From Candidatus Altimarinota bacterium (GTDB lineage Bacteria; Patescibacteriota; Gracilibacteria; BD1-5; UBA2023), in the NCBI GenBank assembly GCA_024709505.1, contig JANJWP010000027.1, positions 1 to 64,000 on the forward strand: 64,000 nt of DNA. Reading direction: 5' to 3'. Numbering within the stretch: the first letter of the stretch is position 1; each line of letters starts with the position of its first letter. A program made the position numbers and the translations under genes. The notes beneath the pieces were generated by a model, which saw only the letters and a list, made by a program, of their open reading frames with translations, ran no database searches and was not told where the DNA came from. Shown here one piece after another: positions 9,757-15,160 of the stretch.

Positions 9757-10836
9757 ATGTCCGCAAAACGATCCATGCCGTACCGTTCTTCTCCGGAGAC
9801 CGTCGAAACCGCGCGACGGTCAATCGAATCGGCGGTGGAATCCTGAGCCGTGAGCCGGATTTTGGAGTTTGTCCGCAAAGGAGCCAGCCAGCCGTTCTGA
9901 GAAATTCCGAATGCTCGCGACATTGGCCGTTACGTCGCCTTCGAAGAACGAAAAATGGCCGCGCTCGAAAACCGAGCTCATCTCCTTTTGATCGAGACGG
10001 TCATTCCAGCGTGCACCGATTATGTTCGAGACCGTTTTCGGGAGGAGCTGCAAGGCGAATTCCCCCGGTTCGATTCGATTCTTTTCGCTCCCGAATACAC
10101 CTCTTCCACCGAGCGTGAAATTTTTGGATGAGAACTTCCTCCGCTCGTGTCGAGATATTCGGGGGGTTGCGAGCCGGTGTACGAAAACGGCGAAGCGAAA
10201 ATCGGACTGAGGCTCAACTTCGATTCGGTGTTCAAAAGTCTCGAAGAAGAGGAAGAAATCACTCGCGAATCCTTTGAGGATTTCGTGGTGCAAGTTCTTT
10301 TCCACGAAGTCATGCACGCACTCTCGGCCAATGTGTACCTCACCGACGAAGGGAAGCGTTCGGCCATTGCCAAGTGGCTCCGTTTTCTCGAAAACGTCGG
10401 GGAAATTCCCGAATATCCCGATTGGAGCGAAATTTCGACGCGATTCGGATATTCGTGCACGTTCGTGGGCGCTTCAAACGGCGACGGCGAACCGACGTAC
10501 CGGTCTTTTCCCGAAATAAACGACATGAACGAAGCCCTCACCGACATTTTTGCCGCGAGGGCTTACGCGCGTTACCGAAAAAAATCATGACTTCCGTCGA
10601 AGCGCTACGTTTTCGGATATCCGCTCCATGCCAAAGCCCTTCATGGGGCACTCGCCGAATTTTGCCGCGAAAACGGCCACGACTTCGACGAAACCTTCAA
10701 AATGATCGAACGGGGGTATTTTTTTGACGACGGCGACTATCTCGACGCCTTTGAAAACGTGTTGTGGGCCATAGTAAACCCGTTTTCGCTCCGCCTTCAA
10801 GGCGCCCGGATTTGGAATCACGACGAAAACGCGTAG
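9757..10836 (+). CDS. Putative zinc metallopeptidase (HExxH zincin-like)
   Basis: A 359-residue protein read through four TGA codons (9844, about 9895, 10129, 10588). Residues 183-187 are HEVMH inside a hydrophobic helix (VLFHEVMHALSA), the zinc-binding signature, and a Glu in NEALTDIFAARAY about 72 residues later is a plausible third ligand. No signal peptide is visible, so it is probably cytoplasmic. A strong promoter ends 6 nt before the ATG. It is followed 28 bp later by creD. The exact peptidase family is not recognised; the substrate is unknown. Confidence 0.7.
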
Positions 10837-12374: not shown

Positions 12375-12402
12375 TTGACATATCGCTTTTCTTAAATATA
12401 GA
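12375..12402 (+). promoter_or_regulatory. Promoter of the peptide/radical SAM locus
   Basis: TTGACA at 12375-12380, 16-nt spacer, TATAGA at 12397-12402; expected start near 12409, giving a leader of about 43 nt to the small peptide gene. Confidence 0.7.
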
Positions 12403-12451
12403 GATATCGCCAATGTTTGGCGAAAACGCATTTCCGGCTTTAGGAGGCCTT

Positions 12452-12592
12452 ATGAAGACAGACCAAAAGAAAATGCCCGCACAACCCGTTCAGGGGCGGA
12501 TCGTCGATGGCGCCAACGCTTCGGCGTTCTCCAGTTGCGGGAACACCCGGAAGACGGCCATCCGTCCCGCTCCCGGGAAGAAGCAGGGGTAA
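12452..12592 (+). CDS. Putative RiPP precursor peptide
   Basis: A 46-codon ORF with an AGGAGG ribosome binding site at 12442-12447, rare in this window, and its own promoter. The peptide is hydrophilic: a Lys/Gln-rich start (MKTDQKKMPAQPVQGR), a middle with a single Cys (AFSSCGNTRKTAIRP) and a basic end (APGKKQG). No signal peptide. It lies 80 bp before a radical SAM/SPASM gene with a terminator in between, the classic layout that lets precursor be made in excess over maturase. One Cys and several Ser/Thr/Asn/Lys/Arg could be modified. No homolog is recognised; the RiPP role is inferred from context. Confidence 0.7.
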   Translation: MKTDQKKMPAQPVQGRIVDGANASAFSSCGNTRKTAIRPAPGKKQG

Positions 12593-12631
12593 TTCCGAGG
12601 TTTTCGAACTCCCGGGATTCGCCCGAACGGC

Positions 12632-12658
12632 ACGGGGGGCTTGCCGCCCCCCGTTTTT
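12632..12658 (+). terminator. Attenuator-like terminator between precursor and maturase
   Basis: ACGGGGGGC pairs with the downstream GCCCCCCGT around a short loop, then TTTTTCTTTTC. It lies 40 bp after the small peptide gene and 15 bp before the radical SAM start, so maturase expression depends on read-through. Confidence 0.85.
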
Positions 12659-12672
12659 CTTTTCTTTGAAAC

Positions 12673-13941
12673 ATGCGCCCGCTCCAGGATAGGAATTTTC
12701 TCGAAAACGAAATTTACGCGGTAACCCACGGCAACCGGACACTCGCCTATGCTCCGTTGACCCGATTTTTCAGCGTTCACGAATGAACCGTTTCCAAGTC
12801 CGAAATTCCGGCGGACTGGAAAGAGGCCGCCTCCAACCCTGAAAACGTTCCCGAATTCGTTTCGGAGAAAGGATTTGCCGACGAGCGGAAGAAGCTGAAA
12901 GTCCGGATGAACGTGACTTCCGCCTGCAACCTCAATTGCTCTTATTGCAGCGTGAGCGCTCAAGCGGGAAAAGGCAAGCACATGGACGAGGAACTTGCCC
13001 TCCGGGCGGTTTCGCAAATGGTCGAATTCGCCAAGGAAACGGGGATGGGTGAAATCGAACTCGCCTTTTCCGGAGGCGAACCCACGCTGCAATCCGGACT
13101 CATTGAAAAAGTCGTCGCACACGCGGACGAACGGGTTGGTGCCGAAGGCATCCAATTGGTAACGAAACTCCTGACGAACGGGGTGCTTTCGCGATCGGTG
13201 GCCGAGCGAATGGTTCCGCTTTTTAACGGAATACAGGTTTCATGGGACGGGTTTCTCGAAAACCATCCACGCTACGGAACGAAGAACGCCCAAATCTCGA
13301 AAACGGTATGGGAGAACATCCGGCGGTTTTCGGAAGCCGGATCAACCGTGAACGTCGCCATGGTCGCCTCCGAAGAAAATGCCGGAATCATCGGCACGGT
13401 GGTGGACGAAATTTATGAAACTTTTCGGATAGAGCACCTTTTCATCGCACTGAAAGACCGTCTCTGAAAGGCTTCTTCGGGAGAAAATTTCAACTACGAA
13501 GCCCTGCGCGAAGAGTACGTTCGGACTTGGAAAAAATACCGTCGCCTTTGAATCGACGTTCCGCTTACCGGAACGGACATCCACTCGATATCGCAATATC
13601 CGTGCGGAGTTTCGGCGCCGAATTTTTCCATCGCCCCGAATGGAACGGTTTCTTCGTGCACGGTATCGTTCAACGATTCCGATGATTTTGCCCGAAGTTA
13701 CGATTTTGGGGCCGTGACTCAAACCGGACTCAAGCTCAATGAATCGCGGATTGTCGAATTTCAAAAAATCGACGTCGCAAGCCTTCCGGAATGCTCCGAT
13801 TGTTTTGCGAAATGGCATTGCCGCGGCTGATGCGCTTATGCCAACCGAAAGGAATCGATGAGAATTTCGGCCCCCGAACGCTGCGAGTTCATCAGGAAGG
13901 TCGTCGCTGACAAGATATTGTTTCTCGCGGGAATCGAGTAA
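12673..13941 (+). CDS. Radical SAM/SPASM peptide maturase
   Basis: A 422-residue enzyme. An N-terminal region with a THGNRTLAYAPLTRFFSVHE-type strand pattern, seen before the barrel in many peptide maturases, is followed by the cluster-binding CNLNCSYC (Cys85, 89, 92), SAM-binding FSGGEPTL and the TIM-barrel core. The C-terminal SPASM part has YPCG, IAPNGTVSSC, LPECSDC and WHCRGGCAY, where the last GG uses TGA (13828), a conserved Gly. Further TGA: 12784, 13465, 13549. SPASM enzymes install thioether, C-C or epimer modifications on peptides, using auxiliary Fe-S clusters. Probable substrate is the upstream 46-residue peptide. Confidence 0.88.
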
Positions 13942-13954
13942 GGACGATTTTTTC

Positions 13955-14524
13955 TTATTCCAAACGGACGAATTCCATCGTCCGTTTTTTCGTGTCATAA
14001 ACCATCGTTCCGGCTTCCGGACGGACTTTTACGGCCTTTTTCATGGAAATTTTGGAAATCTCCGCATAGGCCATCGCAATGAATACGCTGTGGCTTACGA
14101 CCAAAACGTTTCCTTCCGAATCGGGCGGGAACGATTCCAAGAATGCGCGGGAACGTTTTTTCACTTCGAAAAAGCTCTCCCCTCCGGAATGCTTCCGATA
14201 AGGGAACGGTTTGGTTTCGTAAATTTCCCAATCGATTTCATCTTCGGTTTTTCCTTCCGCGATTCCAGCTCCGCGTTCGCGGATTTCGGAGCGGAGTTCG
14301 ATGGGAATCGCGAGCTTTTTGGAGATGACTTTTGAAGTTTCGACCGCTCGGGAAAGGTCGCTTGAGACGATTTTATCGAACCGGACCCCCATTGAAGCCA
14401 ACCGTTCGGCAAGCATGGCGGTTTCTTCCCTTCCTTTTTGGGAAAGCGTTCCGGGGAGCCGTCAGAGAATGATTCCGGCGGCTCATTCGACGGTTTCGCC
14501 GTGACGCAGAAAAAAAAGGCGCAT
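13955..14524 (-). CDS. Histidine phosphatase family protein (phosphoglycerate mutase-like)
   Basis: A 189-residue protein beginning MRLFFLRHGETVE, the catalytic RHG motif, then GRLPGTLSQKG, SSDLSRAVET and VVSHSVFIAMAY with the second active-site His. TGA at 14462 and 14483 are Gly. The branch includes phosphoglycerate mutases, cobalamin/ribazole phosphatases and broad-specificity phosphatases, so the substrate is not assigned. It converges on the radical SAM gene with 13 bp between stops. Confidence 0.88.
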
Positions 14525-14677: not shown

Positions 14678-15160
14678 ATGAAAGCTTTCGCCACTACCTC
14701 TGCCGCTCTCGTTGCAGCGCTTATCCCCCTCTCGGTACTCGCGGTCGAAACCGCCGTTCCGATGCTGTATTCCGAAAATCCGGACATTCTTCCCATGGCC
14801 GCTGCCGTCGTCGAGGACGAACCGCGCATGTGCACCATGGAATACGCTCCCGTCTGCGGAATCGACGGCGTAACCTACGGCAACGCCTGCGGCGCCGGAA
14901 AAACTGCCGTAGCGTATTCGGGCGAGTGCGACGCTTACGTTGATCGCGCGGCTTATGCCCGCCACGTTCGAAAATCGGAAGCCCCCATTTTTAAACGGGT
15001 TTCCGCTTATTCCGAACAAGCCCGGCTCACGGCCATTGACACCATCGAAAAACGCATCGAAGCCGTAAAAAAGAGTCGGATTGCCCGCGAGATGCAAAGA
15101 AAGCGTATTACGGAGCTCGTCTTCGTAAAGAACGTCATTTTAAAGTCGCTTGGACACTAA
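14678..15160 (+). CDS. Exported Kazal-type serine protease inhibitor domain protein
   Basis: A 160-residue protein with an N-terminal signal peptide ([22 protein letters not shown]), then a compact Kazal domain: [20 protein letters not shown], ending at YSGEC, with the expected Cys spacing and the VCGxDGxTYxN core. Only about five Cys are evident, fewer than the six of the canonical fold. The C-terminal 70 residues are basic and helical. Kazal domains bind serine proteases in a substrate-like way; the exported location suggests protection against external proteases. Own gene, no operon partners; 163 bp before the copper operon. Confidence 0.85.

Follow-up and report, generated by a model that had tools for sequence, protein, structure and literature searches.

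RiPPs (ribosomally made, post-translationally modified peptides) matured by radical SAM (rSAM) enzymes with SPASM domains are the described systems closest to the locus reported here. CteB is a thioether-forming RiPP maturase, ChlB is a RiPP rSAM enzyme, SuiB is a carbon-carbon cyclase, and sactipeptides have a thioether between the sulfur of Cys and an alpha-carbon. The SCIFF peptides contain six Cys and a Cys-Thr linkage, and NxxcA has a single thioether between Cys23 and Asn20, with the partner residue three positions before the Cys (PMC8326336). PapB joins Cys to a downstream Asp or Glu (PMC9413430).

The locus studied here is located in a window of 64,000 nucleotides from a Candidatus Altimarinota bacterium (GCA_024709505.1, contig JANJWP010000027.1, positions 1 to 64,000), which lies on contig C28 of a 1.17 Mb genome that is 98% complete. 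It comprises genes for a short peptide, an rSAM/SPASM enzyme, and a histidine phosphatase. On the evidence of its sequence it appears to be a genuine and previously unnamed RiPP-type locus, and it very probably belongs to an undescribed family working by the mechanism proposed below. The presence of an rSAM domain, a seven-Cys SPASM domain and an N-terminal RRE (RRE-like here), and of a short, highly conserved precursor beside the enzyme, resembles the SCIFF/CteB/Tte1186 system (TIGR03974). In contrast, the peptide has one Cys instead of six in 45 residues and has no sequence similarity to SCIFF. The PapB/freyrasin system (NF047865) likewise has a peptide rSAM/SPASM maturase and is the best NCBIfam match, whereas none of the three peptides found here has Asp or Glu within six residues after the Cys. 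The invariant Phe26, three residues before Cys29, is reminiscent of the ranthipeptide NxxcA, even though the residue at -3 is Phe rather than Asn and the family comparison is through NCBIfam only. An invariant peptide core with a SPASM rSAM enzyme bearing an RRE (RRE-like here) is also shared with the PQQ system (PqqA-PqqD-PqqE), but the peptide lacks the Glu/Tyr pair, and no Pqq-like genes were seen in the conserved neighbourhood.

The precursor peptide gene (12452..12592, + strand) starts with ATG at 12452, stops at 12590-12592, and encodes 46 amino acids, MKTDQKKMPAQPVQGRIVDGANASAFSSCGNTRKTAIRPAPGKKQG. The sole Cys (C29) lies within SSCGNTRKT, in agreement with the preliminary description of this DNA. 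Short ORFs with a Shine-Dalgarno site are present 5' of the rSAM orthologues in two other genomes, G065 (locus L039) and G079 (locus L052), and encode homologues of 34 and 40 amino acids, MLTKQGKIDDGQNASAFSSCGNTRKISARPLKTK and MSSKSGKINDGKHASAFSNCGNTRKTRVRPQKTEKKQKSD. The peptides from these three known loci have the common pattern GxI-DG-xx-ASAFSxCGNTRK-xxx-RP with 18 invariant residues and one Cys each, and their stretches from Cys to RP are CGNTRKTAIRP, CGNTRKISARP, and CGNTRKTRVRP. Invariant residues around Cys29 include Phe26 (-3), Asn31 (+2), and Thr32 (+3). In a 25-codon block, pN is 0.12-0.20 and pS is 0.82-1.06, which suggests strong amino-acid constraint with synonymous sites near saturation; the GC content of the three loci is 53% versus 26-31%.

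Across the class (353 genomes), the peptide profile matches only the window's own genome (G000), G065, and G079, which are the same three that have a complete-length rSAM orthologue, one of them split by a frameshift. The probability that the same three genomes coincide at random is 1.4e-7 if genomes are independent, and is a guide only because the genomes are related. The adjacency of peptide and enzyme nonetheless makes chance co-occurrence implausible. In a phylum-wide draw, the peptide was found in one of 380 genomes, namely the window's own. No match was found in viral contigs by exact-pattern search, nor in the plasmids and phages searched. The preliminary description had proposed a RiPP locus and looked to other Gracilibacteria, called with translation table 25, for the same peptide and enzyme pair. 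Two more genomes have it, and the lack of peptide conservation beside homologous rSAM genes, named there as counter-evidence, does not hold. Both of the other orthologues recognisable as full-length have the peptide core next to them, and the proposal is thus supported; as in RiPP loci, a precursor is conserved next to a modifying enzyme (3/3 peptide loci).

The maturase gene (12673..13941, + strand) encodes 422 amino acids and needs code 25 because of four in-frame TGA codons, which are read as Gly. Residues 85-92 contain the rSAM cluster motif CX3CX2C. The SPASM domain has seven Cys (311, 329, 374, 377, 383, 387, and 404) arranged as CX12GX4C at 311-329, CX2CX5CX3C at 374-387, and the last Cys at 404, and the Pfam matches to both rSAM and SPASM exceed their cut-offs. 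Among the 353 class genomes, the enzyme has one full orthologue in G065, on a Gracilibacteria contig (48% identity), and another in G079 (45% identity) that a frameshift within an A-run, due to assembly error or decay, divides in two. In G115 (L053:4550-4732) a C-terminal remnant consisting of the last ~60 residues is present at 53% identity with the phosphatase kept and the peptide absent, and is an example of module decay. The further matches in the class, with E values of 6.9e-17 or weaker, are short or show low identity (20-36%), and by sequence look like other radical SAM enzymes. The distribution of orthologues is patchy. Distant homologues with 23-28% identity occur in Bacteroidota, Ignavibacteria, and KSB1, where the upstream small ORFs have no related motif.

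The modifying enzyme belongs to a peptide-maturase family, as expected of a RiPP locus, since rSAM and full SPASM domains are present and the best PDB relative is CteB. By sequence profile, CteB has 80 bits (1.8e-21) and the anaerobic sulfatase maturase anSME 45 bits (8.7e-11); by fold, CteB is again first (7e-17) and anSME second (3.4e-13). The enzyme does not therefore group with the sulfatase maturases, the outcome that the preliminary description regarded as adverse. Other fold matches are ChlB, SuiB, and weakly PqqE (3.8e-06). The best NCBIfam model for both orthologues is PapB at 91.2 and 100.6 bits, below the cut-off of 340. SCIFF TIGR03974, the second model for the G065 orthologue, gives 70.7 and 88.4 bits against 425, the sactipeptide model StsB gives 74.5 against 625, and the sulfatase maturase model TIGR03942 gives 50.6 against 349.45. 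The N-terminus (about 15-64) is predicted to form a compact RRE-like domain, which is not called RRE here. In two AlphaFold models (pLDDT 82 and 79), the barrel is preceded by three strands and then two or three short helices. These helices do not reach the length required by the strict RRE definition, and the region has no Pfam match. Aligned with distant relatives that have a fuller N-terminal domain, the maturase lacks one helix or has it in shortened form; a Y-A-P-L strand motif is common to both. A role as a defence system was considered separately and rejected, as PADLOC gave only viperin-like rSAM background (53 bits).

The regulatory layout recurs in all three peptide loci as TTGACA with a TATA-type box, stem-loop, Shine-Dalgarno site, peptide gene, hairpin, and enzyme gene. 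All the elements listed in the preliminary description are present, and their arrangement is found twice more. The putative sigma-70-like promoter (12375..12402, + strand) consists of TTGACA at 12375-12380, a 16-nt spacer, and TATAGA at 12397-12402; in L039 and L052 the peptide is likewise preceded by TTGACA and, after 16 nt, a TATA-type box. A generic promoter scan gave nothing on the + strand and missed this site because its second hexamer lacks a final T. A stem-loop, TCGCCAA-TGT-TTGGCGA (12407..12423, + strand; z about -2), lies close to where the transcript is expected to begin, and L039 (z -2.1) and L052 (z -4.1) have stem-loops of other sequence in that position. The Shine-Dalgarno sequence is AGGAGG (12442..12447, + strand) in the window, AGGAGG in L039, and GGAGG in L052. 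The gap between peptide and maturase contains a terminator-like hairpin (12632..12654, + strand) with a 9-bp GC-rich stem and a T-run, 40 bp past the peptide stop, which is probably a partial terminator; L039 and L052 have intergenic hairpins of unrelated sequence at the same position. Six terminators were found versus 5.2 expected from shuffles, which is not above chance. A consensus scan by itself would not prove promoter or terminator, and the case rests on recurrence. The structure kept without sequence suggests that these elements are selected. An RNA search 5' of the peptide found no riboswitch or known RNA, only tRNAs.

The histidine phosphatase (branch 1; PF00300, 114 bits) is encoded convergently at 13955..14524 (- strand), ending 13 bp from the maturase stop. 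Its start is ATG at 14524, with a TTG 84 nt upstream possible. The preliminary description overlooked this gene, which adjoins the rSAM gene in 4/4 loci spanning two families, while the other neighbours differ. The two genes converge in the window and G065, and they share one direction in G079 and at the G115 remnant. Of the 221 class genomes with a phosphatase match, the three other module genomes take the first, second, and fourth ranks behind self. A tree of 15 sequences chosen as best matches places the four module copies and one from G303 in one clade (support 99/98); the G303 copy is a lone, probably broken phosphatase inside the module subclade. The nearest NCBIfam model of the four module phosphatases is the alpha-ribazole phosphatase CobC (TIGR03162) with 77-90 bits, below the cut-off of 162.9, and their function may differ. 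By gene neighbourhood, the histidine phosphatase appears to be a conserved partner, better supported than the zincin (9757) or CreD (10865). These two were suggested earlier as partners and are rejected, being absent from the neighbourhoods of the relatives' loci. The earlier remark that no exporter or protease is adjacent holds: C39 exporter-peptidases and TldD/PmbA were searched for in G000, G065, and G079 and none was found, and no machinery for leader removal or export, a common but not obligatory RiPP trait, is conserved near the loci. The putative zincin itself (9757-10836) has an HEVMH motif and no Pfam match. On the other side, the protein encoded at 14680-15160 (+ strand) is probably secreted and contains a Kazal-type protease inhibitor domain (PF00050, 37 bits), which is unexpected in a Patescibacterium.

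The proposed mechanism begins with overproduction of the peptide, which would be driven by its own promoter, the 5' stem-loop, the Shine-Dalgarno site, and the leaky terminator behind it. The maturase would be expressed by read-through, at a reduced level relative to the peptide. Its RRE-like domain would bind the short N-terminal stretch G-[KR]-I-x-DG, after which SAM and the two auxiliary SPASM clusters would support hydrogen abstraction in ASAFSxCGNTRK and the formation of one cross-link. The most likely interpretation is a new RiPP family in which radical chemistry installs one cross-link, probably at the invariant Cys. The likeliest bond would be a thioether from Cys29 to a nearby invariant residue, either Phe26 at -3 or Asn31/Thr32 downstream, and this single Cys thioether is our first choice with a roughly even chance of being correct. 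The probable role of the phosphatase is to dephosphorylate the product, an adduct, or a linked small molecule. Both the invariance of the core and the absence of C39 and TldD in the three genomes favour a dedicated product, signal- or cofactor-like, over a diversifying bacteriocin. The wider proposal of a new RiPP class in code-25 bacteria is speculative and quite unlikely as a whole; there, the core would become an intracellular cofactor- or signal-like molecule through a compact-RRE rSAM enzyme and a dedicated phosphatase, with no exporter or leader peptidase.

The main rival to the thioether is a carbon-carbon linkage. The enzyme would still be a RiPP maturase, making a link of the three-residue cyclophane type at F-S-(S/N) or altering Asn, Arg, or Lys, and the Cys would serve otherwise. 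Phe26, Asn31, Thr32, Arg33, and Lys34 share the invariance of the Cys, ChlB and SuiB are among the fold matches, and the acceptor residues of PapB are absent from the peptides. However, the thioether enzyme CteB leads by both sequence and fold, the PapB and SCIFF models top NCBIfam for the G065 orthologue, and the residue in the third position of the cyclophane is not constant (S, S, N), which makes a bond other than the Cys thioether rather unlikely. That the phosphatase is a chance neighbour, with the functional unit being peptide and maturase, is unlikely too. Its convergent orientation in the window and G065, which therefore keeps it from sharing one transcript with the maturase, and its lone relative in G303 are consistent with chance, whereas its adjacency across two families and in both orientations amid differing neighbours, together with the high rank of the module genomes, argues for partnership.

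The substrate role of the peptide may also be questioned. The small ORF, lying 5' of a strong hairpin and having a Shine-Dalgarno site, could encode a regulatory leader peptide whose translation controls an attenuator ahead of the rSAM gene. What such leaders conserve is runs of codons rather than whole sequence, whereas here 18 residues do not vary and codon choice does so freely. The hairpin sequences are also unrelated across loci, no alternative antiterminator was seen, and the rSAM/SPASM enzyme class acts on peptides; a leader role is thus very improbable. Less credible still, at a probability close to negligible, is an anaerobic sulfatase maturase or QhpD-like enzyme with its target protein elsewhere and the peptide incidental. 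QhpD is related to the SCIFF maturases (PMC8326336), and anSME is the second fold match. Nevertheless, anSME falls well below CteB and its model far below cut-off, the enzyme has a 75-residue N-terminal domain, and peptide and enzyme strictly co-occur. The reading of the peptide as the probable substrate of a RiPP maturase is accordingly preferred.

Gracilibacteria are bacteria of small size that probably live attached to hosts or as predators, and to our knowledge very few of their biosynthetic pathways are known. No literature joining Gracilibacteria, RiPP, and radical SAM was found among open-licence papers. The recurrence of the locus in distant relatives points to a pathway of peptide modification not yet described, in a group with almost no known pathway of this kind. 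The set of peptide, enzyme, and phosphatase is rare, yet kept across lineages more than 20 points apart in GC. This suggests that its product is accessory and specific, with a possible bearing on the interaction of cell and host. The enzyme genes have from 4 to about 20 in-frame TGA codons, which hides the locus from standard gene calling, and similar loci are therefore probably under-counted. The locus also offers a minimal one-Cys substrate for studies of rSAM cross-linking.

Other loci with distant rSAM relatives were observed in the phylum. Two Patescibacteria of one family (L072:1252-3945 and L075:292-2961) have such a relative with a convergent ORF of ~385 amino acids; these ORFs are similar to each other and have, by eye only, the look of S41-type peptidases. 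In another of the Patescibacteria (G620), a 29-amino-acid ORF, MKKKAKIKAIALKNSKKKQVIKSLECYGC (L074:972-1061), is followed after 15 bp by a distant rSAM relative (1077-2306), and is a second, unrelated candidate for a peptide-maturase pair.
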